NCBI RefSeq assembly: GCF_011305995.1
Contig: NZ_CP049910.1
Span: forward strand, 5,222,501 to 5,286,500
Reading direction: 5' to 3'
Length of the DNA stretch: 64,000 bases
Source: Diaphorobacter sp. HDW4A
GTDB taxonomy: Bacteria; Pseudomonadota; Gammaproteobacteria; Burkholderiales; Burkholderiaceae_C
Shown piece by piece: positions 19,964 to 34,800 of the stretch (position 1 is its first letter; each line of letters opens with the position of its first letter). The translations under genes were made by a program, and so were the position numbers. Under the pieces are notes generated by a model. It was not told the origin of the DNA. It ran no database searches and saw only the letters and a program-made list of their open reading frames with translations.

Positions 19964-21130
19964 TCAGGCGTGTGCAAAGCGCAAGACGAAGCTCGTTCCT
20001 CCGCGCGCGGAGGTGGATGTCTGCACCGTGCCGCCCTGGGATTCAGTCAGCGCACGCACGATGGAAAGCCCGAGGCCCGAACCTTCGCGTCGGCGCTTGC
20101 CGGGCGCTATCGCAAAGCGCTGGAATGGATGGCTCTGGAGTTCCTGTGGCAGTCCGGGGCCAGCATCGCTGATCGTTAGCTGCACCCACTCCACGCCATC
20201 TTCGTCTTCTTTCAACTGGACCAGTACATCGAGCCAGTGCCCGGATGCTGCATAGCGGATTGCATTGCTCACCAGGTTCGTGACGATTTGCCGCATTCGG
20301 TCGGCATCGGCGCGGATGTCGCTTTCTGCTTCGTTGGAAGGCAGAGTCAGTTTCAGTTCCATGTCGGCCGCTTGCAGTTGCGGCAGCAGGGCCGAGAGCG
20401 TTTCACTGACCACGATGTTCAGGCACAAGAGCTGCTTTTGCAGCGAGAGCTGCCCGGCGTCGGCCACGGACAATGTGTGCAGATCCTCCACCAGCCGGCT
20501 CAGGTGCTCGGTCTGCGCGAGTAGGGTGCGGAGCTCAGCCTCGTCCGCGACGATGATACCGTCGCACACGGCATGCAATCGCGCTTTGAGCACGGTGATG
20601 GGCGTGCGCAGTTCGTGCGAAATCGAGGCCGCTGTCGCACGCCGCTCTGCCTCCAGTTCGTCGAGCGAATCAATCATATTGTTGAAGGTATGAATGACTT
20701 CGCCCATCTCCCCATGGGCTCCGGAGGAGACAGCGCGCGCAGAGAAGTCGCCCAACTCAACGCGCTTGGCGACTTCGACAATGGACGCTAAAGGCCGGGT
20801 GACGTAGCGCGACACCCAAAAGCCCACGGTCAGGCCAAACGGCAGGCACACGATCAAGCCGATGATCAGCGACATCTGCTCGCCGAAGAACATGTCGCCG
20901 CGCCAATACTGGCCGTAGATCTGCATGGCGCGCGGGCTGTCCTCCAGATCACGCGCGTTGAGCTCGTCAAGCTCTACGCGCACGGCATCGGGCAGATGGT
21001 TGTAGAACTTGTAGTACTGCACGCTGGAAAATGTCCAAGCGCAAGCGGAAAGCAGGGCAATCGTGCTCAGGACGGTGGCGGCGATCCACAGTCCAAAGCG
21101 TACCCAGATGCGGTTCAGCCCTCGCGCCAT
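19964..21130 (-). CDS. Two-component sensor histidine kinase
   Basis: 388 aa inner-membrane kinase. Transmembrane helices at about residues 11-34 and 86-107 enclose a short periplasmic sensor of roughly 50 residues. Then come HAMP (108-160), the H box with H172 in SISHELRTP, the N box (IVTNLVSNAIRYA), DAGPGL and GSGLGLSIV. It resembles BaeS/AdeS-type sensors that control drug efflux. The ATG at 21130 overlaps the regulator's stop by 16 bp, giving a regulator-kinase operon. Its neighbours make the divergent tripartite export operon the probable target. Signal unknown. Confidence 0.9.
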   Translation of the reverse strand: MARGLNRIWVRFGLWIAATVLSTIALLSACAWTFSSVQYYKFYNHLPDAVRVELDELNARDLEDSPRAMQIYGQYWRGDMFFGEQMSLIIGLIVCLPFGLTVGFWVSRYVTRPLASIVEVAKRVELGDFSARAVSSGAHGEMGEVIHTFNNMIDSLDELEAERRATAASISHELRTPITVLKARLHAVCDGIIVADEAELRTLLAQTEHLSRLVEDLHTLSVADAGQLSLQKQLLCLNIVVSETLSALLPQLQAADMELKLTLPSNEAESDIRADADRMRQIVTNLVSNAIRYAASGHWLDVLVQLKEDEDGVEWVQLTISDAGPGLPQELQSHPFQRFAIAPGKRRREGSGLGLSIVRALTESQGGTVQTSTSARGGTSFVLRFAHA

Positions 21131-21837
21131 AGGCGGTATCCGATTCCGCGCACGGTGTCGATGAGGTTCTCCTGACCCGCCAACTGCAGCTTGCGGCGCA
21201 GCTTGGAGAGGTGGGAGTCGATCACCCGCTCGAGCGCGTCGCTCTCGGGCAGGCAATGCTCGATCAGATGCATGCGTGAAAAGCAGCGCCGTGGCTGGGA
21301 CGCGAGCAGCGCCAGCAGTCGGAACTCGGTGAGCGTCAGGGACAGCGGCTGGGCACGGCCGTCCGCGTCATAGAGCACCGCGCTGTGAGCTTCAGCGTCG
21401 ATCTCGAGCGCGCCAATGCGAATGGGGGTAGCGACTGGCAGCGGCTTGGCCTGCGTGCGCCGGAGCACGGCACGCACGCGGGCCACCACTTCGGCCGGGT
21501 TGAACGGTTTGACCACATAGTCGTCCGCGCCGAGGCGCAGCGCCACCAGCTTGTCCACATCGTCAGCCATGGCGGTGACTATGATGACCGGCGTCTGTCC
21601 ATGATCGCGGATGGTGCGCAGCACGTCGATGCCATCCATGGTGGGCAGGTGAATGTCCAGCAGCACCAGATCGGGATGGTGCTGGCGAAACGCCATCACC
21701 GCTTCGGGCCCGTCGTGCGCCATCACGGTACGCAGTCCGTCGCGTTCGAGATAGGCGTTGAGGATGGTGGCGATACCGGGCTCGTCCTCGACAACGAGAA
21801 TTTGTGGGGTCGCGGTGGTGGCGTGCGTCGTGATCAT
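21115..21837 (-). CDS. OmpR-family response regulator
   Basis: 240 aa. Receiver domain: acidic pocket E17/D18, phospho-acceptor D61 in LLDIHLPTMDG, T88 and K110 in DDYVVKPF. The winged-helix output domain runs from about 140 to 235 (LTLTEFRLLALLASQPRR, DSHLSKLRRKL, VRGIGYRL). The form is like BaeR/AdeR. ATG 21837 places the receiver's first strand ten residues in. Divergent from the outer membrane factor gene over about 190 bp that carries two related palindromes. Confidence 0.93.
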   Translation of the reverse strand: MITTHATTATPQILVVEDEPGIATILNAYLERDGLRTVMAHDGPEAVMAFRQHHPDLVLLDIHLPTMDGIDVLRTIRDHGQTPVIIVTAMADDVDKLVALRLGADDYVVKPFNPAEVVARVRAVLRRTQAKPLPVATPIRIGALEIDAEAHSAVLYDADGRAQPLSLTLTEFRLLALLASQPRRCFSRMHLIEHCLPESDALERVIDSHLSKLRRKLQLAGQENLIDTVRGIGYRLWREG

Positions 21838-21904
21838 GACAGGTGCTCGAAAAGACGAGCAAACCGCTGGTTGCGGACTTTGCTTGAAGTCATTATGGAC
21901 GCAA

Positions 21905-21967
21905 GTCGCAAAGCTTGCGACCATTGTAGGTGTCTCCATCTTTCCTCCATGAATCCTGCAAGCTTGC
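21905..21967. promoter_or_regulatory. Two related palindromes between regulator and export operon
   Basis: GTCGCAA-AGC-TTGCGAC (21905-21921) is a perfect inverted repeat, and GCAAGCTTGC (21958-21967) is a perfect 10-bp palindrome sharing the GCAAGCTTGCG core. They lie between the divergent regulator (ATG 21837) and export operon (start 22031). Their position suits operators for the response regulator, though OmpR-family sites are more often direct repeats. Confidence 0.4.
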
Positions 21968-22030
21968 GCAAGTTTGAGGCGGCCCAATCGGACAAATCCA
22001 TAGGTATCGGCCTGTCGCGGGGAGCGTTCC

Positions 22031-23485
22031 GTGAAGCCATGTTGCCCTCGCATCAGAGTGAAATTTCGTTCGCTTTCCTTCGCTTGTGTTCTTGCTGTGA
22101 CGGCCGTGTTGGCCGGTTGCATGAGCGCGCCTGCGCCCGAGCTGGATCACTCCACGCCGTCGCAATGGACCGAGGCATCGTCGGGAGCCGTGCCCGGCAC
22201 GGGAGCGCGCCTGACGGTGGCCGATCTGCAGACATGGTGGAAGCGCTGGGATGATCCTCAGCTGAATGTGCTGGTGGACCGCGCGCTCGCGCAGAACCTC
22301 AATCTTGCGCAGGCGTTGGGGCGCCTCAAACAGCAGCGCTTGCTGATGGGCGTTGCCTCCGCCAGCTACAAGCCCGAATTCACGGCGGGCGCACGCACGT
22401 TGCAGGATGTCGCTGCCGTCGATTCGTATTTCCACGCCAGCATCGACGCCACATGGGACTTGGGTCTCTTTGGTGCGCGTGAATCGTCCATGGCGGCGGC
22501 GCGCGGAGAACTGCTCAACGCCCAGGCGCAGTTGCGCGGCGCAAGCATCAATCTGGTGGCCGATACCGTGCGCCGCTATCTCGACATCCGGCTCGCCCAG
22601 AGCCAGCGCGTCTTGCTCGCGCAGCGTGTGGCATTGGATCAGCGTGCATTGGGCCTCAGCGAGGTGCGACTGGCTCAGCAGATCGATTCGTCCGACAGCG
22701 TGCACCAAGCCCGCATGCAGTGGCAGCAAAGCCGCAGCCAGCTCATCGAGCTCAAGGAGCAGCAAAGTCGCGCCGCTCATGCGTTGGCGGTGCTGCTCGG
22801 GCAAGCCCAGCCGGACGCCGAATGGCTGGCCGAGACTTCCATGGTGCGACTGCCTCTGCCCGAGCAGTTTGCGCTGCAGGTGCTGCCCGCTGATCTTCTG
22901 CGCACGCGGCCCGACATCGAGACGGCGGAGGCCTCTGTGCAGCGCGCGGCGGGCGCACTCGGTTTGTCGCGCTCGGCGCTCTATCCTCGCTTTGCGCTGT
23001 CGGGCTCGCTGCTGTATTCCTACAACCTCACGCAAAATTTGCGCACTACATCGAATCAGATGCCGCTTGTCGGACCGATCATCGACATACCGCTCTTCGA
23101 CTGGTGGCGTCGACGCTCGCAAGCCGATGCTGACGAGGCCGCGCTTGATGTGGCTATCGCGGGCTACCGTCAGAGCGTGCTCGAGGGCATTGCCGATGTC
23201 GAGGGGGCGCTGGCAGGGCTGAATGCACAGCGCGAGCGCATGGCCGCTCTGCTGGAGGCCGAAGCCTTGATCCGCAAGCGCGAGGGCGTGCTCGAGCGCC
23301 GCCAGAAGTTGGGTCTTTCCAGTGATTGGGGGCGCCTTGCCGAGCAGCGTGCCGATCTGGTCAACCGTGCCGATCAGAACATTGCGCAGGGTGCTCAGGC
23401 CCTCGCCTATGTGGCGCTGTTCAAGGCGCTGGGTGGTGCGCCGTTGCCGGTGGAGCCTGAGTCTGCGACGGAGGCCGCGCGATGA
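22031..23485 (+). CDS. Outer membrane efflux lipoprotein (NodT/TolC-like)
   Basis: 484 aa. An N-terminal lipoprotein signal with lipobox LAGC precedes two outer membrane efflux repeats (about residues 60-260 and 275-470), the trimeric channel-tunnel fold. Typical blocks are WWKRWDDPQLNVLVDRAL, YPRFALSGS and LPLVGPIIDIPLFDWWRRR. It provides the outer membrane exit of a tripartite pump. The GTG at 22031 has GGGGAG seven bases upstream; a GTG nine codons later is an alternative. First gene of a nine-gene operon, overlapping the permease by 4 bp. Confidence 0.9.
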   Translation: MKPCCPRIRVKFRSLSFACVLAVTAVLAGCMSAPAPELDHSTPSQWTEASSGAVPGTGARLTVADLQTWWKRWDDPQLNVLVDRALAQNLNLAQALGRLKQQRLLMGVASASYKPEFTAGARTLQDVAAVDSYFHASIDATWDLGLFGARESSMAAARGELLNAQAQLRGASINLVADTVRRYLDIRLAQSQRVLLAQRVALDQRALGLSEVRLAQQIDSSDSVHQARMQWQQSRSQLIELKEQQSRAAHALAVLLGQAQPDAEWLAETSMVRLPLPEQFALQVLPADLLRTRPDIETAEASVQRAAGALGLSRSALYPRFALSGSLLYSYNLTQNLRTTSNQMPLVGPIIDIPLFDWWRRRSQADADEAALDVAIAGYRQSVLEGIADVEGALAGLNAQRERMAALLEAEALIRKREGVLERRQKLGLSSDWGRLAEQRADLVNRADQNIAQGAQALAYVALFKALGGAPLPVEPESATEAAR

Positions 23486-24627
23486 TCGCTCTGGCGCGCA
23501 AGACCCTCGCCTACGAATGGCGCCGTTTTGTGCCATCGGTGTTCGCTGTGGGCTTCGCTGGCGTGCTGCTGGTGATGCAGGCGGCGCTGGTGCTGGGCAT
23601 CTTCAGCACCGCAGCAATCTATGTGAGCGCGACCTCGGCCGATCTGTGGGTCGGTTACCCCGGCACGCAGAGCGTGAACTTCGGTCGCAACATTGGCCCC
23701 GATGTCGAGATGCGCCTGCGCATGGATCCCGACATCGCCGCCGTCGAACCCTATGTCTGGGTCGATGGTGACTGGCGCGCGCGCAGCGTCACGGCTGAGG
23801 CGGTGGGTGGCGTGTCCATCTACCTCTCCGGTATCTCGACGTCCTCGGACGCGATGATGTTCGACCACGTGCTCGCGCCTTGGCAGCGCAACATGCTGCG
23901 CGAGCCCGGAGCGGTCATCGTCGACCGTGCGGATCTGCCCACGCTGGCTTCGGCCGAAGGCGGTGCGGCATGGATCAACAACCACCCGGTGCGCATCGTC
24001 GCTGCGGTCGACGGACTGCGGGGGCTGGGCGGTGTCAACGTGATCACGTCACTTGAAAGCGCGCGCGAGATTTCGGAACAATCGGCCAACCACGGCAGCA
24101 CCTATCTGGTCGCTCGTGTGCGCAGCGGCGCCGCGCTGCCTGCCGTGCAGGACCGACTCAACAAGGGCGGCGTGAATTTCGGACCACATGAAGTCTGGAC
24201 AGCAGCGGCCTTCGCACGCCGCTCGCAGTTCTACTGGATGTTCGATACCGGTGCGGGCGCTGGCGTGCTGTTCATGGCCATCATTGTGTGCTTTGTGGGT
24301 GCTGTGGTGACGAGCCAGTCACTCAAGTCGGTTGTGGCGGGGTCGGCACGCGAGTATGCTGTGCTCAACGCGTTGGGCGTGAGCCGCGGCGCTTTGGGCC
24401 GAGTGGTCGTGGAGCAGGCGCTGTGGATTGGTGGGCTGGGCCTGCTGATGGCGGCGCTCGCCAGCCTGGCGCTGCTGTCTGTAGCGCGTGTGTACCGCGT
24501 GCCGGTGGCGCTCAATGGTCAGGCGATGCTCGCCTGCGCGGCGCTCATTGCTGTGCTGGCATTTCTCTCGGGCATCGGCGCGATGCGTGGACTTCTGCGC
24601 GCTGATCCGGCCACATTGCTGAGGTGA
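23482..24627 (+). CDS. ABC transporter permease, FtsX/DevC-like
   Basis: 381 aa. One N-terminal transmembrane helix (about residues 17-40), a periplasmic domain of roughly 200 residues, and three C-terminal helices (about 260-285, 310-335, 345-370) are the topology of MacB/FtsX-type permeases. The sequence closely recalls DevC of heterocyst glycolipid export. Such permeases act as mechanotransmitters, pushing periplasmic substrates through a TolC-like channel. It starts inside the last codons of the outer membrane factor gene, so translation is coupled. Confidence 0.88.
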   Translation: MIALARKTLAYEWRRFVPSVFAVGFAGVLLVMQAALVLGIFSTAAIYVSATSADLWVGYPGTQSVNFGRNIGPDVEMRLRMDPDIAAVEPYVWVDGDWRARSVTAEAVGGVSIYLSGISTSSDAMMFDHVLAPWQRNMLREPGAVIVDRADLPTLASAEGGAAWINNHPVRIVAAVDGLRGLGGVNVITSLESAREISEQSANHGSTYLVARVRSGAALPAVQDRLNKGGVNFGPHEVWTAAAFARRSQFYWMFDTGAGAGVLFMAIIVCFVGAVVTSQSLKSVVAGSAREYAVLNALGVSRGALGRVVVEQALWIGGLGLLMAALASLALLSVARVYRVPVALNGQAMLACAALIAVLAFLSGIGAMRGLLRADPATLLR

Positions 24628-24640
24628 TGGCGTCCTGAAC

Positions 24641-25414
24641 ATGATGATGAACCCCACCACCCCCGAACCCGTCACCACCCGGCTGCAGGCCGAGCCCAGC
24701 CTGCAGGCCGTGGCGCTCAAGAAGTCCTATCTCTCTGGCGTGGTGCGGGTGCATGTGCTGCAGGGGCTGAGCGTGTCGCTTTATCCCGGTGAGCTGTCGC
24801 TGATTTCCGGTCCATCGGGCTGCGGCAAAAGCACGCTGTTGTCATTGATGTCGGGACTGCTCACGCCGGACAGCGGCAAAGCGCTCGCGCTGGGGCAGGA
24901 CCTTGAACGCCTGAGCGCGAGCGAGCTTGAACGTTTCCGTCTGCGCCACACCGGGTTCGTGTTTCAGGGCTTCAACCTGTTCCCGGCGCTCACGGCCATG
25001 GAGCAGGTCCAGTTGCCGCTGGGCTATATGGGCATCCGCTCGTCAGAGACAAAGCGCCGTGCACAGCAGGCGTTGGACGAGGTCGGCCTCTCGCACCGGG
25101 CACACATGCGCCCGGCCGAGCTCTCGGGCGGCGAAAAGCAGCGTGTGGCCATCGCCCGCGCCATGGCCAAGCAGCCGCAGTTGCTGTTTGCCGATGAACC
25201 CACCAGTGCGCTGGATGCCGAAAGCGGCCAGCGCGTGATTGACATCCTGCACCGCGCGGCGCGCGCGCACGGCACGACGGTGCTATGCGTGAGCCACGAC
25301 CCGCGTCTGGTGCGCCACGCGGATCGCGTGCTCAGCATGGAGGACGGCGCCATTCGCAGCGACTGGCGTCAGAACGCTTCGCTCGCAGCAGACGATCAAG
25401 GAACGGAGCAATGA
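24641..25414 (+). CDS. ABC transporter ATP-binding protein (DevA/MacB-type)
   Basis: 257 aa cytoplasmic ATPase partner of the permease. Walker A GPSGCGKS, Q-loop FVFQGFN, signature LSGGEKQR, Walker B LLFADEP and the H-loop VSHD are all present, so it should be active. The three consecutive ATG codons at 24641 leave the exact start open. It overlaps the following lipoprotein gene by ATGA. Confidence 0.93.
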   Translation: MMMNPTTPEPVTTRLQAEPSLQAVALKKSYLSGVVRVHVLQGLSVSLYPGELSLISGPSGCGKSTLLSLMSGLLTPDSGKALALGQDLERLSASELERFRLRHTGFVFQGFNLFPALTAMEQVQLPLGYMGIRSSETKRRAQQALDEVGLSHRAHMRPAELSGGEKQRVAIARAMAKQPQLLFADEPTSALDAESGQRVIDILHRAARAHGTTVLCVSHDPRLVRHADRVLSMEDGAIRSDWRQNASLAADDQGTEQ

Positions 25415-26346
25415 ACAAGACCCTGCGCCTTTCAACGGCTTATCTGGCGGTGGCCGCGGCAATTGCAGCGCTGCTTGCGGGATGCTCGCCATCGAAAGGT
25501 GACCTGCCTGCATCCACCGCTCAAGCGGCCATCGCTGCGACGCCGCAGAGCGGACCCGCTGCGGTGGCACGCGGCAAGATCGAAGTGGAGGGTGGCCTGA
25601 TCGACCTTGCGCCTGGCATCAACGGCACCGTTCAGCAATTGCCGGTGAAGGAAGGCCAGAGCGTGCCACGCGGCCAACTGCTGATGCGCATGGCCGACGA
25701 TGCCTCGCGCGCCGATCTGTTGGTGGCCGAATCGGAATGGAAGCTCGCCGAGGCGCGCCTTTCGGCCAAGACCAAGCGCCTGCCGTTGGTCAAGACCATG
25801 CACGCCCGCTGGCAGAACGCCGCGCGTGAAGGCGCTGCGGATGCGCACAGCGTGGACGAGGCAGCCCAGCAACTGCGTGATGCGCAATCCGAAGCCGATG
25901 TGGCGCAGGCCGAGGTGAAGGTGGCTCAGGCCAAGGTCGAGCAGCTGCGCGCCGTGCAAAGGCGCTTCGAGCTGCATGCGCCTGAGGCCGGAACCATTGT
26001 GCGCATACGCACCCATGCAGGCAGCCAGGCCGGACCCGCGCAGACGGTGATCACGCTGCTGCCGCAAAAACCGCTCATCGTGCGGGCCGAACTCAATGAA
26101 AGCTTTGCCAACGCGGTGCGCGAAGGCATGCACGCCACCGTGGTGCTGGACGGCGACGCTGGCAACAACACGGTGGCGCTTCCCGATGCCAAGGTGCTGC
26201 GCATCAGCCCGGTGTTCGGTGCCGCGCATCTACAGGAAGACACACAACGCGGGCCCGTACGCATCATCGAATGCGTGCTGGTATTCGACCAACCACCAGC
26301 CAAGGCCCGTGTGGGTCAGAACGTGAGGGTGACTTTCCATGAATAA
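25411..26346 (+). CDS. Membrane fusion (periplasmic adaptor) lipoprotein, HlyD/DevB-like
   Basis: 311 aa. The signal ends in a lipobox (LLAGC). It then shows a lipoyl/barrel-sandwich half (GTVQQLPVKEGQSVPRGQLLMRM), a long coiled-coil hairpin rich in Ala, Glu and Gln (about residues 95-185), the second lipoyl half (FELHAPEAGTIVRI) and a beta-barrel domain. It links the ABC permease with the outer membrane channel. The ATG overlaps the ATPase stop (ATGA) and its own end overlaps the HAD gene by 8 bp. Confidence 0.88.
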   Translation: MNKTLRLSTAYLAVAAAIAALLAGCSPSKGDLPASTAQAAIAATPQSGPAAVARGKIEVEGGLIDLAPGINGTVQQLPVKEGQSVPRGQLLMRMADDASRADLLVAESEWKLAEARLSAKTKRLPLVKTMHARWQNAAREGAADAHSVDEAAQQLRDAQSEADVAQAEVKVAQAKVEQLRAVQRRFELHAPEAGTIVRIRTHAGSQAGPAQTVITLLPQKPLIVRAELNESFANAVREGMHATVVLDGDAGNNTVALPDAKVLRISPVFGAAHLQEDTQRGPVRIIECVLVFDQPPAKARVGQNVRVTFHE

Positions 26347-27046
26347 CCGCATCATCCAACTGCACCCCCATCCCGCCACCCCCGGCTGGATGGTGCAATC
26401 CGACTTCGACGGCACCATCAGCGTGCTCGATGTGACCGACACCCTGCTCAACCGCTTCGGCCAACCCGGTTGGCAGGAACTGGAGGATGCATGGGAGCGC
26501 GGCGAAATCGGCTCGCGCGAATGCATGAAGGGTCAGGTCGCTCTTCTCGACATGAGCGAAGCCGAACTGCGTGCGCATCTCGACACGATTCAGATCGATC
26601 CCGGCTTTGTCGGCTTTGTCGACATCGCGCGCACTCACGGCATCACGGTGCAGGTGGTGAGCGACGGCATTGACTACGCTATCCGCCATGTGCTTGCGCG
26701 CCATTGCCTTGGGCATCTCGAAGTGATTGCGAACCGCCTCGTGCAGACCGGTGAGCGCAGCTGGCGTCTGGATTCGCCATGGGCCAGTGCCCGCTGCCAG
26801 CGCGCCAGCGGCAACTGCAAGTGCGAGCGTCTGGCAGAGCAGCAGAATCTGCATGGACGTGTGCTCTATGTGGGCGATAGCACCTCGGATTTCTGCGTCT
26901 CGCACATGGCGGATTTTGTGCTGGCCAAGTACAAGCTCATCGCGCATTGCGAGCAGCACGGCATATCGCACGCGCCCTTCGAGACCTTCACGCAGGCTAC
27001 GACACTGCTCGAGAAGGTCGCGCTGGGGCTGGAGGTACTGGCATGA
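26339..27046 (+). CDS. HAD-IB phosphatase, MtnX/SerB-like
   Basis: 235 aa. Motif I DFDGTIS (nucleophile Asp near residue 22), motif II near VVSDG and motif IV GDSTSDFCV are those of HAD-superfamily phosphatases. The overall pattern follows MtnX, the phosphatase of methionine salvage, and phosphoserine phosphatases. No other methionine-salvage gene is present, and the gene is embedded in an export operon, so a different phosphorylated small molecule is likelier. Overlaps both neighbours. Confidence 0.82.
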   Translation: MNNRIIQLHPHPATPGWMVQSDFDGTISVLDVTDTLLNRFGQPGWQELEDAWERGEIGSRECMKGQVALLDMSEAELRAHLDTIQIDPGFVGFVDIARTHGITVQVVSDGIDYAIRHVLARHCLGHLEVIANRLVQTGERSWRLDSPWASARCQRASGNCKCERLAEQQNLHGRVLYVGDSTSDFCVSHMADFVLAKYKLIAHCEQHGISHAPFETFTQATTLLEKVALGLEVLA

Positions 27047-27981
27047 ATGCGGTAGACGGTTTTCACCTCCTGCAGCAAAGCGAGAGCGAACAGAACTTGG
27101 AATCTCACTCGCAGGCGCTGCAGCGCCTGTGCCTTACTGCCAATGAATTCGTGATGCCGGGCTCCGGCCCTGAGGCGCGCACTGGCGTGCTGCTGGTACA
27201 CGGCCTCACAGGTACACCGGCTGAAATGCGCGTGCTTGCCAAAGGCTTGAACCGTCAGGGCTTCACCGTGTACGCGGTGCAACTCGCAGGCCATTGCGGC
27301 GTGATGGAAGACCTGGTGCACACGCGCTGGCAGGATTGGCTGGCGAGCGTGGAATCGGGGCTTGCACGTTTCTCCGGGCATGTCGATCAAGTGGTGGTTG
27401 GTGGCCTCTCGATGGGCGCGCTGCTGTCGCTGGCCGTGGCCGAAAAGTGTGCCGACAAGGTGGCGGGCGTGTGCGCGCTGTCCACCACGTTCCGCTATGA
27501 CGGCTGGAGCATTCCGTCATACACCAAGCTCTCGTTTCTGCTGCCGCTGTTCCGCTCGCTCGGCATCGGCCGCAATAGCGTGTTCATGGAAGCACCGCCC
27601 TACGGCATCAAGGACGAAGCGCTGCGCGCGCGCATCGTCGAGCAGATGCACAGCGGCAACAGCGCTGCGGCGGGGCTACCGGGCAATCCGTGGTGGTCGA
27701 TCATCGAGCTGCGCCGGCTGTCGACGCATGTGCAATCGCATCTGGCCGACATCCACGCGCCCTGTCTTGTGATTCATGCGAGCGAAGACGACATCTCCCA
27801 TGTCTCCAACGCGCACGACATCGAGCGCAAGGCGGTGAATGCCAAAGTCAAACTGGTGCTGCTGGACAACTGTTATCACATGATCACCATTGACCGCGAA
27901 CGCCGCACGGTGATCGCGCGCATCAACGATTTCCTTGGCCGCATCTCTGCCACACGAACGGAGGCCGCGCAGCATGGGTAG
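27043..27981 (+). CDS. Alpha/beta hydrolase (carboxylesterase-like)
   Basis: 312 aa. VLLVHGLTGTPAEM gives the oxyanion loop, GLSMGA the nucleophile elbow (Ser), and the Asp and His of the triad fit HASEDDISH and NCYHMITID. It resembles Est30-type carboxylesterases and monoacylglycerol lipases. In this operon it could cleave or transfer an acyl group. ATG overlaps the preceding stop by ATGA; its end overlaps the next gene by 8 bp. Confidence 0.87.
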   Translation: MNAVDGFHLLQQSESEQNLESHSQALQRLCLTANEFVMPGSGPEARTGVLLVHGLTGTPAEMRVLAKGLNRQGFTVYAVQLAGHCGVMEDLVHTRWQDWLASVESGLARFSGHVDQVVVGGLSMGALLSLAVAEKCADKVAGVCALSTTFRYDGWSIPSYTKLSFLLPLFRSLGIGRNSVFMEAPPYGIKDEALRARIVEQMHSGNSAAAGLPGNPWWSIIELRRLSTHVQSHLADIHAPCLVIHASEDDISHVSNAHDIERKAVNAKVKLVLLDNCYHMITIDRERRTVIARINDFLGRISATRTEAAQHG

Positions 27982-28345
27982 TGAGCTGTCGCCATTGGTC
28001 ATCACGCTGTGGGTGCTCAATGTGCTGGTGGACAGCGGGGGGCAGCTCGCTTTCAAGGCAGCGGCCAGTGAGCCGGGGGATCTGGATGGCATGGCGCGCT
28101 GGCGCTTTATGCTGGGGCGCCCGTGGCTGTGGATTGGCGTGGCTTGCTATGTGGCCGAGTTCGTTTTCTGGCTCGCGTTTCTCTCGCTCGTGCCGCTCTC
28201 GGACGGTGTGCTGCTGGGCTCCATCAACATCGTCGCCATCATGATTCTGGGCCGCATCCTGTTCAAGGAAAAAATGGCACCGCTGCGCGTAGCGGGCATC
28301 GTGCTGGTGTCGATCGGCGTGGCGATTGTGGGGCTCAAGGCATGA
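27974..28345 (+). CDS. ArnE-like small (SMR/DMT) membrane transporter subunit
   Basis: 123 aa with four predicted helices. The first helix carries GGQLAFKAA, comparable to the GQL..K motif of ArnE/ArnF, the paired subunits that flip undecaprenyl-phosphate-aminoarabinose across the inner membrane. The second small transporter starts inside its stop codon (ATGA), so the two are probably made as a pair. The lipid or amino-compound substrate is not known. Confidence 0.78.
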   Translation: MGSELSPLVITLWVLNVLVDSGGQLAFKAAASEPGDLDGMARWRFMLGRPWLWIGVACYVAEFVFWLAFLSLVPLSDGVLLGSINIVAIMILGRILFKEKMAPLRVAGIVLVSIGVAIVGLKA

Positions 28346-28797
28346 AGCGTTTCTACGTGATCGGCTTCCTGGTGCTCATGGCGTTCGACACGCTCGCGCA
28401 GCTCAGCTTCAAGATGGCGGGCAATGCCGCGTTGCCGCTCGAGTTCGGTACTGCGTGGCTTGCGCGCGTGTTCGGTCAGCCGTGGATCTATGGCGCGTTC
28501 ATCGGCTACATCGGCGCATTCTTCACCTGGATGAGTCTGCTAAAAAAAGCGCCCATCGGTCCGGCCTTTGCGGCCTCGCATCTGGAGATCATCTCGGTGC
28601 TCGCGCTTTCGCACTACCTCTTCAACGAAGACATCGGCTGGCCGCAGATCGTTGGGTGCCTGTTCATTCTCGCAGGCATCGTCTGCCTTGCCCTCAGCGA
28701 GACCGAAGAGCCGGATCAGCATGGTGATGGCGCTGCCACCGGTCATGCGGGTGCGGGCTCCACCAGCGCAAGCGCTGCGCGTCTGGCAGACAATTGA
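28342..28797 (+). CDS. ArnF-like small (SMR/DMT) membrane transporter subunit
   Basis: 151 aa. Four helices in the first 118 residues, with LAQLSFKMA in helix 1 mirroring the preceding subunit, then a hydrophilic C-terminal tail of about 30 residues rich in Gly, Ala and Ser. The tail is unusual for SMR proteins. Likely a heterodimer with the protein from 27974. Only three bases separate it from the DegT aminotransferase gene. Confidence 0.78.
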   Translation: MKRFYVIGFLVLMAFDTLAQLSFKMAGNAALPLEFGTAWLARVFGQPWIYGAFIGYIGAFFTWMSLLKKAPIGPAFAASHLEIISVLALSHYLFNEDIGWPQIVGCLFILAGIVCLALSETEEPDQHGDGAATGHAGAGSTSASAARLADN

Positions 28798-28800
28798 GGG

Positions 28801-30033
28801 ATGAGCTCTCTCCCACGCGTCACCGTTCCCCCCACCGCTGGTCTGCCACTGCGCCTGGGCGATTTGCTGCCGTGGGGCAACGCGAATTTCGATGATGCGC
28901 TCGCGCAATGGCTGGGTGTGCCCGCGGTGCAACTAGAGTGCTCAGGTACGTCGGCGCTGATGGTGGCGCTGCGCACGCTCAAGAAGCTTGCGCCTGCGCG
29001 CAACGAAGTGATCGTGCCTGCCTACACCTGCCCGCTGGTGGCGCTGGCCATCTCCCAATGCGGATTGCAGGCACGTCTGTGCGATCTGAGTCGTGATGTG
29101 CTCGACATGGACGAAACCATGCTGCGCGCGCTGTGCAGCGAACACACGCTGGCCATCGTGCCCACGCATCTGGGTGGGCGCGTAGCGGATGTGCGTGTGG
29201 CGCAGCACTTTGCGCAGATGGTCGGCGCCTACGTGATCGAAGACGCCGCACAGGCACTTGGCGCACGCGTTCATGGCGAGGCCGTGGGCATGCAGGGCGA
29301 TATCGGCATCTACAGCCTGGCCGTGGGCAAGGGCCTCACCACCTACGAGGGCGGCGTGCTGATTGCGCGTGACCCCGAGATGCGCAAGAGCCTTCGTGCC
29401 ATGCACCGTCGCACCATCGGCCCGAGCCTCGGATGGGAGCTGCTGCGCAGCGCTGAGCTGGTGGGCTATGCGGCGATCTACCGTCCTGCGACCTTGGATT
29501 GGGCCTACGGTGCGCCGCTGCGCAAGAGCCTTGCGGAGGACGACTGGATCGCTGCAGCCGGTGACGATTTTGACGCCTTTATTCCGCAGCACACGCTGGG
29601 CACCTGGCGCCAGCGTGTCGGTGTGCGCGCGCTGGTGCGGCTGTCGGCCCATCTGCTGCAGGCGCACGAGCGCGCGCAGCCGCGCATTGCGCAGCTCATG
29701 CAGCTGCCCGGTGTCGAGGTGGTCGGCGACATGGCGCCGGATGCGCAGGGCACTTGGCCAGCGCTGCTGTTGCGCATGCCGAACCGCGCCGCGCGCGACG
29801 CGCTGATGCGGGCACATTGGGCATCGGGGCTGGGGCTTTCGCTGCCGTTTGTGAACATCCTCTCCGACTATGTGCGCTACGCACCGCTGCTCGGCAGCGC
29901 GGTGCTCGACAGCGTGATGATCGCGCGCGACTGGGCACAGCGTCTGATCTCGGTGAGCAACAGTGAATGGCTTACGGACGAGAAGTTTGCGCAATTGATG
30001 CGTACGCTGGAATCTGCTGTTCACGAACCTTGA
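28801..30033 (+). CDS. DegT/DnrJ/EryC1/StrS-family PLP aminotransferase
   Basis: 410 aa. The family usually aminates keto sugars. The internal aldimine lysine is K177 in LAVGKGLTTYEGG, D148 in IEDAAQALGA holds the pyridine nitrogen, and VPAYTCPLVALAI is the substrate-side loop. It is related to ArnB in fold, and follows two ArnE/F-like genes, but no other sugar-nucleotide gene is present. The last 62 bp overlap the 3' end of the convergent cfa-like gene on the other strand. Confidence 0.85.
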   Translation: MSSLPRVTVPPTAGLPLRLGDLLPWGNANFDDALAQWLGVPAVQLECSGTSALMVALRTLKKLAPARNEVIVPAYTCPLVALAISQCGLQARLCDLSRDVLDMDETMLRALCSEHTLAIVPTHLGGRVADVRVAQHFAQMVGAYVIEDAAQALGARVHGEAVGMQGDIGIYSLAVGKGLTTYEGGVLIARDPEMRKSLRAMHRRTIGPSLGWELLRSAELVGYAAIYRPATLDWAYGAPLRKSLAEDDWIAAAGDDFDAFIPQHTLGTWRQRVGVRALVRLSAHLLQAHERAQPRIAQLMQLPGVEVVGDMAPDAQGTWPALLLRMPNRAARDALMRAHWASGLGLSLPFVNILSDYVRYAPLLGSAVLDSVMIARDWAQRLISVSNSEWLTDEKFAQLMRTLESAVHEP

Positions 30034-31255
30034 GCGCATCGCGGCGCGGGCCGATGTAGTCGCGCGTGAGCGGCACGGCTTCTTGTTTGCGCGCGAGTTG
30101 AATCTGGAAAATCGCGATGTCCTGGTATCGGAACGCGGTCTCCGACATCGACAGGTAGAACTCCCACATCAGGCAGAAGCGCTCGTCGTACAGCGCCTTG
30201 GCTTCACTCCGCCGCGCCATGAAGCGCTCGCGCCATAGCCGCAGCGTGCGGGCGTAGTGCAGGCGCAGCACTTCGATGTCGATCACGATGAGGCCCGAGC
30301 GCTCGATGGCGCTGCTGAACTCTGACATCGCGGGCAGATTGCCGCCGGGGAAAATATAGCGCTCGATCCACGGATTGTTGAAGTCCGGCGTTTCAAGGTT
30401 GCCAATGAAGTGCAGCAGCATCACGCCGTCTTCGTTCAGAAGGTCAAAGCACTGCTTGAAAAATGCATTGTGAAACCGCGCTCCCACATGCTCGAACATG
30501 CCGACGGAGACGATGCGGTCGAACGGGCCCTTGGTGTCGCGATAGTCTTCCAGCGCGTATTCCAGCCGCTCGGGCACGGAGGTGTTCGCCGCGCGCTTCT
30601 TAGCGCCTTCAAGCTGCTCTGTAGAGAGGGTTACTCCGCGCACGTGCCCCGCGCCAGCCACTTCGGCGATATAGCGCGAGAGCCCGCCCCAGCCGCAACC
30701 GATGTCGAGCACGCGTTGGCCCGGTTCCACCAGCAGCTTGGCGGCGATGTGGCGCTTTTTGGCGAGTTGCGCGGTTTCCAGATCTTCGTCGCCATGTTCA
30801 AAATACGCGCAGGAATATTGGCGATCGCTGTCCAGAAAGAGCTGGTACAGCCGGTCATCCAGATCGTAGTGATGGGCCACGTTGGCGCGTGATTTGCTGC
30901 GCAGGTTGTTCTGCAGGATCGGGCGCAGCCTCATGCGCCATGCGTCCAGCATCTGCACGGCCTTGCTGTCGGGCACATCCTTGGCGTGGCGCAGCACGAG
31001 TTCGAGCACGTCGTAGACCGAGCCTTTGTCGATGACGATGCGCTGCTGCATGAACATCTCGCCAAAGTTCAAGTCCGGGTCGCGCAACAGATTGAACACG
31101 GCGCGTTGATCGGTGAAGCGCATGCGCGCCTGGGGCTGGCCGCCATCGCCAAACGTGAGTACCTTGCCCGAAGGGGTTAGCACTTCGAGCTGGCCAGTTT
31201 TCAACAGCGGCGCAAATGCGCGCTGCAGCATGTTTTCACTCAGACTCTCGATCAC
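29972..31255 (-). CDS. Cyclopropane-fatty-acyl-phospholipid synthase family methyltransferase
   Basis: 427 aa. An N-terminal region of about 110 residues precedes the SAM-binding core with VLDIGCGWGGLSRY (about 180-193). The CFA blocks AHHYDLDDRLYQLFLDSDRQYSC and EHVGARFHNAFF are present. Members add a methylene from SAM across an acyl-chain double bond in phospholipids, but relatives modify other lipids. It is the last gene of a four-gene operon with an aminotransferase, an acyltransferase and an arginase-like protein, so a specialised substrate is possible. Confidence 0.88.
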   Translation of the reverse strand: MIESLSENMLQRAFAPLLKTGQLEVLTPSGKVLTFGDGGQPQARMRFTDQRAVFNLLRDPDLNFGEMFMQQRIVIDKGSVYDVLELVLRHAKDVPDSKAVQMLDAWRMRLRPILQNNLRSKSRANVAHHYDLDDRLYQLFLDSDRQYSCAYFEHGDEDLETAQLAKKRHIAAKLLVEPGQRVLDIGCGWGGLSRYIAEVAGAGHVRGVTLSTEQLEGAKKRAANTSVPERLEYALEDYRDTKGPFDRIVSVGMFEHVGARFHNAFFKQCFDLLNEDGVMLLHFIGNLETPDFNNPWIERYIFPGGNLPAMSEFSSAIERSGLIVIDIEVLRLHYARTLRLWRERFMARRSEAKALYDERFCLMWEFYLSMSETAFRYQDIAIFQIQLARKQEAVPLTRDYIGPRRDALKVREQQIPAYASIAQTSRP

Positions 31256-31299
31256 GGTGTGTGCTCCTCGGGAGGTTGTTGTGCGCTGTGCCTCTGCGG

Positions 31300-32235
31300 T
31301 TATGCCTGCGCCGATCCTATGGGGGCAATGTGACAGCGCGCCAGTTGTTCCACCAAGCGTTCATTGAGTGCGTGTTGCCCGATCTGGCTGGTAGCCAGTT
31401 GCATCTCGGGGATTTGCGTGTCCTGCCCGTCGCCTGCGCTCAGCAAACGCTTCCACCATGTCGCGTACCGCCACGCCGAAATATCGCCGGTGATATCGCT
31501 GCCCGCTATCTGCCCGCGCAGGGCGGCGATGATCTGCGCCGCATCTTCCTCGCGCATGCGGCCCTGGTCCCAGTTGGTGCGCACCACATCGGGTGAGAAC
31601 ACATCTTTGTCGATACTGAGATAAGTGGGTTGCGGCGCGGCTTGCAGCGTCTGCGCGAGTTCGGAAGACAAGGCGCTCACGTTGTCGAAACTGCGAAACG
31701 CCTTGCCAAAGCCCGCACGCTGCGCCCAATCGGTGTTCACGCCGCAGCTCCAGTAACTGAGCTTGCCAGCGCGCAGCGGCTCTTTGTAGTTCTCCCACGC
31801 GTGACCTGCACCGATGTCGCTTGATGTGATGCCCGCGACAGTCACGTGCGACACCGCAGGATGCATCGCCACGCGCCGCACCCACGAGCCACAGTGCACG
31901 CCCCAGAGGAAGCGCATGTTGTCGGGGTGGTTGTCCAGCACGATAACGCGCAGTGGATTGGCTGGAGTGTGGCCGCGCAGCGCAATGCGATGCTCGATCA
32001 ACAACCAGCTCAGATGATGAAAATCCCCACTGCCCATGAGCGCCGTGCCCCAATCGGCGGGCAACCGTTTTTCCACTTCTGCGCGGAATGCGGCATATCG
32101 ATTCAGCGTGCAGCCAAAGCGCACGCCCTCTTGCCAATCCTTGAGCGGCAAGCGCGTTTCATCATCCAGCGGGCCCACTGAGCCATCCACATCCAGCACC
32201 AACGGGTGCAAGGCTTGTGCTGCAGTGTTCGTCAT
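31300..32235 (-). CDS. Arginase-superfamily-like protein (UPF0489-like)
   Basis: 311 aa. Metal-ligand-like motifs of the ureohydrolase fold appear in order: GSGDFHH (near residue 70), VLDNHPDNM (near 100), HCGSW, and SIDKDVFSPD (near 210). They are diverged from true arginase/agmatinase (which have DxHxD and SxDxDxxDP), and LDNHPD is reminiscent of the UPF0489 family. It may hydrolyse a guanidino, amide or related bond; the reaction is unknown. ATG 32235 overlaps the stop of the upstream acyltransferase gene by 4 bp. Confidence 0.65.
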   Translation of the reverse strand: MTNTAAQALHPLVLDVDGSVGPLDDETRLPLKDWQEGVRFGCTLNRYAAFRAEVEKRLPADWGTALMGSGDFHHLSWLLIEHRIALRGHTPANPLRVIVLDNHPDNMRFLWGVHCGSWVRRVAMHPAVSHVTVAGITSSDIGAGHAWENYKEPLRAGKLSYWSCGVNTDWAQRAGFGKAFRSFDNVSALSSELAQTLQAAPQPTYLSIDKDVFSPDVVRTNWDQGRMREEDAAQIIAALRGQIAGSDITGDISAWRYATWWKRLLSAGDGQDTQIPEMQLATSQIGQHALNERLVEQLARCHIAPIGSAQA

Positions 32236-33299
32236 GCGGCGTCGCTCCATTGCCGGTCGCTTTCGAAATGACCGGCAAACTTGTGACCCAGTGCGCGAAG
32301 CAAAGGGTTGCGGATGAACACAGCGTGCTGCGTGAAGGTAAATCGCGCGCCGAGCTGGGCCTTGACTTCAGGGTCCGTCCAGCCCGCCACGTAGTGCGCG
32401 AGGTTGCGTTCGATGGCGTATTCCAGATTGATCATCCAGCTCACGAAATAAAGATTCGCCTCGCGTGCTTTGGGGTACGAAAGGCCGATGTATTTGTCGA
32501 TGAGCTTGCCTTGGTGCTCGAAACACAGGTTCCAGCCGAGCAGGTCGCAGCTCACCGCATCGCGGTATTCGAACACAATGCCTCCGTTGTGTTCATCACG
32601 CAGAAGCGCCGAGAAAAAGCTGCGTGTGAGCTTGTCGAAATGAATTTCGCTCTGTGCGTAGACCGCATCGAACAGCGCGTAATACGCATCCACACGCGCG
32701 TCGTCAGCAAACGCAGCTCCGGTGGGAATGCGCGTGATCTGCAACTGATCGCGGCTCTTGAGCTTGCGTTTCAGATTCTGGCGGCGACTTTTGGAGAGGC
32801 GCGCCAGGTACTCGGCGAGATTCGCAAAATCGATGGGCACGTAAGCCAACGCCTGGCCTTCGACAGTGATGAAACCTGCGGTGCCCAACTCTTGCAACAG
32901 CAAGGCCGCAGCGGCGTTGTCTTCAGCGCAGAGCAGCGGCGATTGTCTCGGCAGATCTTTCACGATGGTGAGCATGCGTGCGCCGGCTTTCTGGCGCAGT
33001 TGCTGGGCGATGGCTGCGGGCTCGATATCTGCGGGCAGCAGGGCGTACTCGCTCACCGTCGTGCCCACAAAGTCTGCCCGCAACCGCAAATGCCGCGACA
33101 ACCACGTGCCGCCGGGGAGCCTCTGCAGCTTCAATTTCAAGTCGTCATCGGCCGTGGTCAATAGATCAAACGGCGCGGTGAACGCGGGCGCACCCCAATC
33201 GGCAAGAACGACAAAACCTTCGGGCGGATGCGCGGCAAATTGCCGCATCAGCGCCGAAGGTTCCAGTTGATTGCGAAACGGTGTTTCTACCGCTGGCAT
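32232..33299 (-). CDS. GNAT / FemAB-like acyltransferase
   Basis: 355 aa. The C-terminal half has the layout of acyl-CoA- or aminoacyl-dependent N-acyltransferases: KSRRQNLKRKLK near residue 168, then YYALFDAVY, GGIVFEYRD and YIGLSYPKAREANLYFVSWMINLEYAIE, with the YIGLSYPxAR...LY pattern seen in FemAB-like/GNAT proteins. The N-terminal half is less clear. ATG 33299 overlaps the aminotransferase stop by one base (TGATG). Predicted to acylate an amine made by the upstream aminotransferase; this is inference from the operon. Confidence 0.68.
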   Translation of the reverse strand: MPAVETPFRNQLEPSALMRQFAAHPPEGFVVLADWGAPAFTAPFDLLTTADDDLKLKLQRLPGGTWLSRHLRLRADFVGTTVSEYALLPADIEPAAIAQQLRQKAGARMLTIVKDLPRQSPLLCAEDNAAAALLLQELGTAGFITVEGQALAYVPIDFANLAEYLARLSKSRRQNLKRKLKSRDQLQITRIPTGAAFADDARVDAYYALFDAVYAQSEIHFDKLTRSFFSALLRDEHNGGIVFEYRDAVSCDLLGWNLCFEHQGKLIDKYIGLSYPKAREANLYFVSWMINLEYAIERNLAHYVAGWTDPEVKAQLGARFTFTQHAVFIRNPLLRALGHKFAGHFESDRQWSDAA

Positions 33300-34675
33300 C
33301 AAGCTTTCTTGGCTTTGGTGAGCAGTTGATCCAAGAGCACCATCGCCTCATCAATCTCAGGACGGGAAATCATCAGAGACGGTGCGAACGTGATCACGTT
33401 CTTGTAGTAACCGCCAACGTCCAGCACCAGGCCGCGTTGTTGGCCCTTATATTCCAGACCGCCTTCAAGACCGATATCGACCATCTTGTCGAGCAGCGCC
33501 TTGTTGGGGGTGAAGCCGTCTTCGGTGCAGATCTCGGCGCGCAGCGCGAGGCCGATGCCGTCCACATCGCCGATTTCCTTGTGGCGCTTTTGCAGTTCTT
33601 TGAGGCCTTCGAGGAAGTAGGCGCCCGATTCGCGCACTTGTCTGCCGAAGTCCATCTCGTGGGTCATCTTCATCACTTCCAGACCCAACGCGGTGCCGAG
33701 CGGGTTCGAAGCGAATGTGGAGTGCGTGGAGCCCGGAGGGAACACGGTCGGGTTGATGAGTTCTTCGCGCGCCCACAGGCCCGAGAGCGCATTCAGGCCA
33801 TTGGTCAGCGCCTTGGCGAACACCAGCACATCGGGCTTCACGCCAAAGTTTTCCACCGACCATAAGGTACCGGTGCGCCAGAAACCCATCTGGATTTCGT
33901 CGACCACCATCAGCACGCCGTGGTCGTCCAGAACCTTCTTCAAGCCCTTGAAGAAGTTCGGCGGTGGAACGACATAGCCACCCGTGCCCTGAATCGGCTC
34001 CACGTAGAACGCGGCGTATTCGCACTGATTGGTCTTGGGGTCCCACACCGCGTGGTATTCGTTTTCGAACTTGCGCTCGAATTCCTTGACGATGGAATCT
34101 GCATATTCCTCGGACGTCATGCCCTTGGGGCGGCGGAACGGGTAAGGAAACGGAATGAATTGCGCCCGGTCGCTGAAGTGACCAAAGCGGCGACGATAAC
34201 GGTAGCTCGACGTGATCGACGAAGCACCCAGCGTGCGGCCGTGGTAGCCACCTTCGAACGCGAACATCAGGCTCTTGCCGTTGCTGGCGTTGCGAACCAC
34301 CTTGAGCGAATCTTCAATCGCCTGTGCACCGCCCACATTGAAGTGCACGCGGCCGTCGAGCCCCCATTTCTTCTGCGCATCCTGCGCGATGAACTTGGCC
34401 AACTCGATCTTGGTGGGATGCAGGTACTGGCTTGCGACCTGCGGCAGCTCCTTGAGCTGCTCGATCATCTTGTCTTCAAGACGCTTGTTCTTGTAGCCAA
34501 AGTTGACCGCCGAATACCACATCTGCAAATCCAGATACGGCGTGCCCGCGTCGTCATACATGTAGCTGCCTTCGCAGCCAGTAAAGATCTTGGGAGGATT
34601 GACGTAGTGGACGGTGTCGCCAAACGAGCAGTATTTGGCTTCGTCAGCCAACAATTGAGCGGTATTGAGGGTCAC
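33299..34675 (-). CDS. Class III PLP-dependent aminotransferase
   Basis: 458 aa. PLP lysine K288 in VFAKALTNGL, D259/E260 in VVDEIQMGFWRTG, and the phosphate loop around GGAQAIEDSLK are intact. The family moves amino groups from omega-amino acids, polyamines or ornithine derivatives to 2-oxo acids. The closest substrate class cannot be fixed by eye. First gene of a four-gene operon (aminotransferase, acyltransferase, arginase-like, Cfa-like) with overlapping or close junctions. Confidence 0.9.
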   Translation of the reverse strand: MTLNTAQLLADEAKYCSFGDTVHYVNPPKIFTGCEGSYMYDDAGTPYLDLQMWYSAVNFGYKNKRLEDKMIEQLKELPQVASQYLHPTKIELAKFIAQDAQKKWGLDGRVHFNVGGAQAIEDSLKVVRNASNGKSLMFAFEGGYHGRTLGASSITSSYRYRRRFGHFSDRAQFIPFPYPFRRPKGMTSEEYADSIVKEFERKFENEYHAVWDPKTNQCEYAAFYVEPIQGTGGYVVPPPNFFKGLKKVLDDHGVLMVVDEIQMGFWRTGTLWSVENFGVKPDVLVFAKALTNGLNALSGLWAREELINPTVFPPGSTHSTFASNPLGTALGLEVMKMTHEMDFGRQVRESGAYFLEGLKELQKRHKEIGDVDGIGLALRAEICTEDGFTPNKALLDKMVDIGLEGGLEYKGQQRGLVLDVGGYYKNVITFAPSLMISRPEIDEAMVLLDQLLTKAKKA

Positions 34676-34800
34676 AGCGGGAAGGCTCCTGATTTAAGCC
34701 TTCGCAGTGTCGGAACCCAATCTTGTGGGTCGGTTAAGAGTTTTTGGAGGAATTGTGGAGAGTGGTGATCTTGTGATGAGCTTTTGCTGCTTTGCTGAGG
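34676..34800. other. Upstream region of the aminotransferase operon
   Basis: No gene is seen. This holds the likely promoter of the minus-strand operon and then runs into dispersed repeat copy A. No confident hexamers were found. Confidence 0.5.

Follow-up and report, generated by a model that had tools for sequence, protein, structure and literature searches.

DzrR of Dickeya oryzae is a zeamine- and chlorhexidine-responsive envelope-stress regulator, and is described as conserved in Dickeya, Ralstonia, and Burkholderia, according to the excerpted text of the source (PMC10052836); the same excerpts set the AdeR site apart from the DzrR box. In the bacterial sphingolipid pathway (Spt, bCerS, and CerR), Spt may use acyl groups bound to acyl carrier protein (ACP), as stated in excerpts of PMC11087976. 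Here, we describe a block of 15 genes that shares features with these systems as well as with ArnBCADTEF, MprF and FemX, and the DevBCA–TolC glycolipid exporter. It occupies positions 19964–34675 of a 64,000-nucleotide stretch of Diaphorobacter sp. HDW4A (contig NZ_CP049910.1, positions 5,222,501–5,286,500 of the forward strand), hereafter the window. The host genome comprises 6.76 Mb in 3 contigs.

The genes of the block travel together, have a predicted operator in common, and encode proteins with folds related to known ones. We consider the chances about even that they constitute a single regulon, responsive to envelope stress, for the synthesis and transport of an amine-bearing lipid; its identity, the sequence of steps, and the protective role are proposed from sequence. 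All components belong to known families, and the logic of the block resembles that of Arn and MprF. The set as a whole matches no described pathway in open-licence PMC papers, and no description of it was found there, in line with the initial annotation, which knew of no such system.

Two operons with a common predicted operator

All 15 genes are present at the coordinates first assigned to them. The block and its two putative operators are as follows.

19964..21130, minus strand: sensor histidine kinase (HAMP, HisKA, HATPase); nearest NCBIfam models AdeS and BaeS, well under their cut-offs
21115..21837, minus strand: OmpR-family response regulator; best NCBIfam model AdeR; open reading frame (ORF) extendable to 21939
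21934..21949, plus strand: putative operator in the divergent region between the regulator and channel (tolC) genes; CTCCA-N6-CTCCA, 10/10
22031..23485, plus strand: outer-membrane channel lipoprotein (OEP); NodT-type subfamily TIGR01845 above cut-off; lipobox LAGC; start codon uncertain
23482..24627, plus strand: ATP-binding cassette (ABC) permease, FtsX-like; DevC model 42.0 of 290.35 bits
24641..25414, plus strand: ABC ATPase, DevA/LolD/MacB-like; DevA model 226.6 of 295.8 bits
25411..26346, plus strand: HlyD-type periplasmic adaptor; lipoprotein signal LAGC; DevB model 52.5 of 129 bits
26339..27046, plus strand: HAD-IB phosphatase (HAD), core gene; MtnX-like TIGR01489 and Put_Phosphatase PF06888 both above cut-off
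27043..27981, plus strand: alpha/beta hydrolase, core gene; nearest solved relatives monoacylglycerol lipases; catalytic Ser, Asp, and His kept
27974..28345, plus strand: SMR-type membrane subunit 1 (SMR1), core gene; acidic residue in the first transmembrane helix (TM1)
28342..28797, plus strand: SMR-type membrane subunit 2 (SMR2), core gene; acidic TM1 residue
28801..30033, plus strand: DegT-family pyridoxal phosphate (PLP) enzyme; family match limited to residues 28–205; Lys177 kept
29972..31255, minus strand: cyclopropane fatty acid synthase-like methyltransferase (Cfa), accessory; second Cfa-like gene of the host genome
31300..32235, minus strand: ureohydrolase of arginase fold (arg), core gene; every metal ligand present
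32232..33299, minus strand: FemAB_like N-(amino)acyltransferase by predicted fold (gnat), core gene
33299..34675, minus strand: class III PLP enzyme (amt3), core gene and the most conserved cassette gene; Thr429 replaces the usual carboxylate-binding Arg
34745..34760, minus strand: putative second operator copy, 10/10; the reverse operon starts 70 bp downstream of it

The kinase ORF probably starts at the ATG at 21130 and overlaps the regulator gene by 16 bp. The regulator itself probably starts at the ATG at 21837 and not further upstream, since the response-regulator domain begins ~46 residues into the longer ORF. The junctions of the forward operon are overlaps of 4, 4, 8, 4, 8, and 4 bp, together with gaps of 13 and 3 bp, which agrees with the lengths given in the initial annotation (overlaps of 4–8 bp, otherwise 3–13 bp). 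In the reverse operon, amt3 and gnat overlap by 1 bp, gnat and arg by 4 bp, and a gap of 44 bp separates arg from the Cfa gene. At their 3' ends, the DegT and Cfa genes run 62 bp into each other (29972–30033), so that the two operons share their ends.

A direct repeat, CTCCA-N6-CTCCA, is found in both operon promoters. The box was first suggested by a pairwise 18-mer comparison of the two promoters (14 of 30 loci, one of them without usable sequence). The repeat corresponds to the core of the box reported for DzrR in the excerpts of PMC10052836, and by our own reading of the printed letters the AdeR repeat quoted there also contains it, on the other strand. The CTCCA units follow the 11-bp period of the AdeR/DzrR box. 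At the sixth base, the tolC-side site has T and the amt3-side site C or A; the full CTCCAT is present on one side only. A third, weaker repeat follows the divergent-region operator, as a 9/10 pair at 21945–21960.

Among relatives, all 29 divergent regions carry the repeat with at least 9 of 10 positions matched (24 distinct sites, some genomes being duplicates), against a background of 0.06 such repeats per kb across all loci. A matrix built from the relatives alone gives its two best window hits at 21932 (plus strand, 27.4 bits) and 34741 (minus strand, 27.0 bits), with the next independent hit at 11.4 bits. Of the 29 loci, that of the window among them, 27 score above 60 shuffles at p < 0.05 in the region upstream of amt3; the two exceptions are L038 (p = 0.066) and L130, where the gene start is uncertain and a 9/10 site precedes the likely start. 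In the whole 6.76-Mb genome, there are two occurrences of the strict pattern CTCCAYNNNNYCTCCA, one per operon promoter, and three of the reversed control. The count alone is therefore near chance, and it is the positions that matter. Because both promoters carry the core repeat of the DzrR box, the two operons probably form a single regulon, in agreement with the earlier view that the block has its own two-component system.

No sigma-70 or terminator match was obtained in a promoter scan of 21900–22100. In a set of 22 loci, mostly from other lineages, perfect copies of the box were seen in L124 alone, where two overlapping ones lie beside a closer regulator; 13 of the other loci have scattered 9/10 hits. 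A simple 18-mer comparison of seven loci outside this regulator type (six from Pseudomonas and L123) gave no shared promoter motif; L117 scored slightly above its three shuffles. Three genomes (at G246:C23:569989, G697:C1:440894, and G700:C3:420891) have in common a second site, CTCCATCATTTCTCCA, which is similar to the DzrR footprint in print and possibly marks an RND pump promoter.

The genes immediately outside the block, named by eye as acyl-CoA dehydrogenase, sterol-desaturase-like, MetH, and tripartite-transporter receptor, are matched at >45% identity in 2, 2, 5, and 0 loci, respectively (among L001–L142, duplicate genomes included), so the limits of the block coincide with those of conservation. 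A near-perfect palindromic repeat (TCACTTTTTGG...CCAAAAAGTGA) lies at 34832–34861 and again at 36212–36241, around metH and the amt3 promoter. Its chance expectation is none; a strict version of the pattern has a single match in the genome.

Conservation of the block and of a wider core

Loci were collected by a profile search of genome contigs with an alignment of the arg protein, and the best 80 of 554 confirmed relatives were mapped by tblastn with all window proteins; they are thus chosen by arg, and several genera are over-represented. Flanks of at least 9.8 kb on both sides are available for 61 of the 80, with 28 in Xanthomonadales and 33 outside (Burkholderiales, two Pseudomonas, and a few metagenome-assembled genomes (MAGs)). 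Eleven main genes, namely amt3, gnat, arg, DegT, SMR1, SMR2, the hydrolase, HAD, and the three ABC genes, occur together in 24 of these 33 loci, which is more than chance. The operons are thus not usually apart in other genomes, and the idea of one functional unit gains support. The forward operon is not within 10 kb in 5 of the 33, and in all five genomes DegT is present elsewhere. Many related soil and water bacteria have the block as a unit, and the set is found in Comamonas, Delftia, Variovorax, Acidovorax, Dyella, and Rhodanobacter.

Among the 28 Xanthomonadales loci, gnat, arg, DegT, both SMR genes, and the hydrolase are together in 25, and all eleven main genes in 9. Genes for a ketoacyl-ACP synthase (KAS) and an ACP adjoin gnat or the SMR genes in 35 of the 80 loci, each of these belonging to the Xanthomonadales type. 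Dyella has the set in two parts: second loci (L125–L127 and L141) hold MipA, the ABC pump, the channel, HAD, and amt3, with a kinase–regulator pair 0.3–4 kb beyond the amt3 group in the four loci fetched. The other locus contains gnat, arg, DegT, the SMR genes, and the hydrolase in three of the four genomes, and gnat and arg in the fourth (L063/L141), where DegT lies elsewhere.

The loci of Pseudomonas asuensis and P. luteola (L042 and L053) carry the whole Burkholderiales-type block with regulator and box and without Cfa, a type different from that of ten other mapped Pseudomonas loci, which suggests horizontal transfer. In Diaphorobacter aerolatus (L006 and L008), the arg match is broken into two pieces that overlap and lie in different frames, which may reflect either a disrupted gene or a sequence error. 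In an Alcaligenaceae bacterium and a Pigmentiphaga MAG (L082 and L086), the block is rearranged, and a spermine-synthase-like gene, assigned by a family match in L082 and by membership of the same sequence cluster in L086, adjoins the exporter.

A smaller core consists of the class III PLP enzyme, the HAD phosphatase, the hydrolase, the FemAB/MprF-fold transferase, the ureohydrolase, and the two SMR subunits; it is found again, in reshuffled order, in Pseudomonas and on plasmids of Rhizobium and Agrobacterium. DegT and the exporter are lineage-specific and Cfa is optional. In 397 genomes drawn from the phylum, arg is found in 21 (20 strong matches and one at E 4e-4). With a threshold of E 1e-80, amt3 is found in 28, which include all 20 genomes with a strong arg. 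In Pseudomonas, arg is present in 22 of 99 sampled species, 19 of one cassette type and 3 with a cassette similar to that of the window; P. protegens and P. chlororaphis are among the named relatives. All ten cassettes mapped from the 19 contain arg, SMR1, SMR2, MipA, HAD, amt3, the hydrolase, gnat, and a kinase–regulator pair, and four of them also a desaturase match. DegT, Cfa, and the exporter are absent from all ten, so these members of the set as first annotated do not belong to the core.

In one order of another class, arg occurs in 5 of 150 genomes. A locus of this order, L101, carries genes for a regulator, kinase, HAD, amt3, arg, an SMR-like subunit, a fatty acid desaturase family protein, hydrolase, gnat, SMR2, Cfa, and MipA. 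Its arg matches 47 plasmid records (Rhizobium 16, Roseomonas 11, Agrobacterium 10, Bartonella 5, and five others with one each), 17 of them typed conjugative, and its amt3 matches 34 plasmid records at E 1e-80, the best at 90.7% in Rhizobium. The annotated loci of Agrobacterium fabrum pAt2788a and Rhizobium leguminosarum pRL23b4 have an identical gene order: regulator, HAD, aminotransferase, arginase, EamA, desaturase, hydrolase, transferase, EamA, and Cfa, with MipA on the opposite strand. No kinase is listed between regulator and HAD in the incomplete gene table of pRL23b4. DegT and the exporter are missing from L101 and from both annotated rhizobial cassettes.

On pAt2788a (L145), a plasmid typed conjugative, the cassette is immediately followed by genes annotated for a lipid A phosphoethanolamine transferase and a diacylglycerol kinase, which do not follow it on pRL23b4. 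A gene for a MipA-family outer-membrane protein is a frequent neighbor in Pseudomonas, rhizobial, and Rhodanobacteraceae loci (L102, L108–L117, L101, L074, L125–L127, L141, L145, and L146). A divergent amt3 relative (54% identity) at L131:9911-12231 adjoins a sulfotransferase-family gene, without the rest of the cassette.

Active sites, proposed pathway, and alternatives

None of the three pump proteins scored with Dev models reaches its NCBIfam cut-off, and the Arn equivalog cut-offs are missed as well: SMR1 scores 29.3 of 92 for ArnE and 23 of 99 for ArnF, and SMR2 25.6 of 99 for ArnF. The response regulator falls short of the AdeR cut-off (256.5 of 340 bits), although AdeR is its best model. 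Cfa scores 297 bits against a cut-off of 27 for PF02353 and 578.9 against 600 for CPFASynBruc; amt3 scores 242 bits against 30.5 for PF00202. The 15 block proteins scanned include no ArnA, ArnC, ArnT, or nucleotide-sugar protein and no serine palmitoyltransferase-type PLP enzyme; unlinked copies were not sought. The DevC-, DevA-, and ArnE/F-like labels of the initial annotation are therefore not supported, and DegT, Cfa, and the exporter are not core, while the unit, the two-component system, and, as a suggestion, an amino-containing, probably lipid-linked product are retained.

In alignments read in the correct frame, an acidic residue lies eight positions before the TM1 lysine in 101 of 101 ungapped rows for SMR1 and 100 of 101 for SMR2. 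By hand alignment (the program alignment does not include TM1), it corresponds to Glu14 of EmrE. The HAD motifs DxD and CKC are conserved in 87–88 of 88 rows, the Ser-Asp-His triad of the hydrolase in 101–102 of 103, and Lys177 of DegT in 80 of 80. The metal ligands of arg are kept in 114–115 of 120 rows, the remainder being gaps; its binuclear metal ligands and fold place it in the ureohydrolase superfamily. Where GabT and alanine/serine racemase have Arg, amt3 has Thr429 in 96 of 97 ungapped rows. In class III aminotransferases, the C-terminal Arg binds the carboxylate of the amino acid, so the substrate or donor of amt3 is probably unusual.

The closest solved relative of the HAD protein is the MtnX phosphatase. 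The predicted fold of gnat is a tandem GNAT, nearest to aminoacyl-tRNA-dependent peptide synthases, FemX, and MprF; its donor may be acyl-ACP or acyl-CoA instead of aminoacyl-tRNA. Distance correlations over 69 loci, uncorrected for shared ancestry, are 0.83–0.95 among HAD, hydrolase, arg, and gnat. Those with amt3 are 0.52–0.62, but the amt3 set includes at least one pair at 0% identity, which indicates incomplete rows.

We propose that the DzrR/AdeR-type regulator would switch on both operons upon envelope damage such as that done by cationic amphiphiles. Three enzymes, namely the class III PLP enzyme, the phosphatase, and the lipase-like hydrolase, would supply an amine-bearing intermediate. 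An acyl chain, indicated by the ACP, FabF-like synthase, desaturase, or Cfa partners, would come from fatty acid synthesis, through the dedicated ACP and FabF-like synthase in Rhodanobacteraceae and the desaturase and Cfa in rhizobia. An enzyme pair that has diverged in close step, the transferase and the ureohydrolase, would add or trim an amino-acid-like group. The SMR pair, whose acidic residue in each subunit indicates a cationic cargo, would flip the product across the inner membrane, and in the lineage of the window the DevBCA-like pump and lipoprotein channel would carry it outwards. The product would lower the surface charge or otherwise protect the envelope. If such a protective amine lipid is made, many environmental bacteria have an unrecognized defense against membrane-active compounds, and several enzymes of unknown substrate gain one.

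In a more specific version, which we hold to be rather unlikely, the PLP enzyme and phosphatase would form an amino-alcohol backbone, gnat would load an arginine-type residue from tRNA, and the ureohydrolase would cut off urea to leave an ornithine-like cationic group, with the SMR heterodimer flipping the lipid under DzrR-type envelope-stress induction. This route, if true, would be a widely spread proteobacterial resistance-lipid pathway parallel to Arn and MprF. A serinol or ceramide-like product is attractive, given a PLP enzyme without the carboxylate Arg and a phosphatase, but found no support in open-licence PMC papers. Membership of the bacterial sphingolipid pathway was rejected, as the block has no Spt, and anti-phage defense likewise, with no PADLOC match for six block proteins.

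Several observations weigh against a single lipid-making regulon. Over all lineages, the amt3 upstream region reaches 9/10 in only 9 of 101 cases, and the site is often degenerate. In 16 genomes of relatives, the strict box occurs at 39 places, compared with 10 for the reversed control, so that it is also present outside this locus in those genomes. A perfect box is missing where the lineage has another regulator, L124 being the exception among the 22 loci. Outside Xanthomonadales, Cfa is found at 50% identity or more in 11 of the 33 full-flank loci, and most loci lack it. The exporter is absent from the mapped Pseudomonas and from most rhizobial-order cassettes, so export is not essential to the function. 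L121 and L122, of the same order as L101, have arg without recognizable partners, which argues against a fixed cassette. In 8 of its 28 genomes, amt3 occurs without arg; in the stretches fetched around it, HAD and the hydrolase are kept in 7 of these 8, the eighth being L131, and gnat appears only as a short weak match in L132, so the two modules may have separable roles. A FabF-like synthase accompanies 4 of the 7 and an ACP 3 of those 4; KAS and ACP lie beside HAD–amt3 in L133–L135, and KAS alone in the short contig L142.

The same genes could serve a secreted cationic amphiphile, an antibiotic or signal, instead of a membrane lipid. As with DzrR and zeamine, the two-component system would then respond either to the product itself or to the harm it does to the membrane, and secretion of the product and protection of the producer would fall to the ABC pump and channel. 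The AdeR-like regulator with its DzrR-type box, the placement of pump and channel in one operon with biosynthetic genes, the patchy distribution (21 of 397 genomes), the plasmid carriage described above, and the fold closest to that of gnat, which belongs to a streptothricin-type antibiotic peptide synthase, all speak for this account. We rate its probability well below even. Against it, the mapped Pseudomonas and rhizobial cassettes retain the core and the SMR pair and not the pump; moreover, no non-ribosomal peptide synthetase or polyketide synthase is present among the 15 proteins scanned. We consider it quite unlikely that the block makes and exports a water-soluble amine or polyamine derivative, with Cfa, the desaturase, FabF, and ACP as bystanders. 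Polyamine and arginine metabolism typically involves enzymes of the ureohydrolase and class III aminotransferase families, spermidine leaves the cell through SMR pairs such as MdtIJ, and the spermine-synthase-like gene of L082 and L086 fits as well. However, the recurrence of KAS and ACP in 35 of 80 loci and in L133–L135, and of the desaturase and Cfa inside the rhizobial operon, is hard to call chance, and the hydrolase is nearest to lipases.

Detoxification, which we judge about as unlikely, would have enzymes induced by cationic biocides (ureohydrolase, aminotransferase, esterase, and phosphatase) take apart amphiphiles that bear guanidine or amine groups, with expulsion by the SMR pair and the ABC pump. 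Chlorhexidine is a bis-biguanide, SMR proteins export cations, and the nearest folds of arg include metformin hydrolase, guanidinase, and guanidinopropionase. DzrR, moreover, answers chlorhexidine, as excerpted from PMC10052836. Against this, the conserved ACP, FabF-like synthase, desaturase, and extra Cfa have functions in synthesis or chain modification, the fold of the transferase is anabolic, and metal-ligand and other active-site positions are nearly invariant, unlike those of a flexible detoxification set.

Comparison with described systems

The regulatory part of the block is reminiscent of DzrR–DesABC and AdeRS–AdeABC, with an AdeR-type regulator, CTCCA repeats in the period of the DzrR box excerpted in PMC10052836, and divergent regulator and pump operons. 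In contrast to these systems, the predicted targets are an ABC pump with a biosynthetic set and a second, distant promoter; there is no RND pump, and the regulator remains below the AdeR cut-off.

A DegT-family aminotransferase and a small EamA/SMR-type pair under a two-component system recall ArnBCADTEF, which modifies lipid A with aminoarabinose and from which the block differs by its ArnE and ArnF scores, by its lack of ArnA, ArnC, ArnT, and nucleotide-sugar genes, and by the acidic TM1 residue in both SMR subunits. With MprF, a synthase of lysyl- and alanyl-phosphatidylglycerol, and FemX, the block shares the predicted fold of gnat, the comparison with MprF covering the fold only; instead of the MprF flippase domain it has an SMR pair, and it also includes a ureohydrolase and a class III PLP enzyme.

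An N-acyltransferase and the dedicated ACP of relatives, as for an amide-linked lipid, resemble the bacterial sphingolipid pathway, whereas the PLP enzyme of the block is of class III and not of the serine palmitoyltransferase type. Permease, ATPase, adaptor, and channel are arranged as an ABC export pump like that of DevBCA–TolC, although the proteins score below all three Dev cut-offs and the pump is specific to certain lineages.

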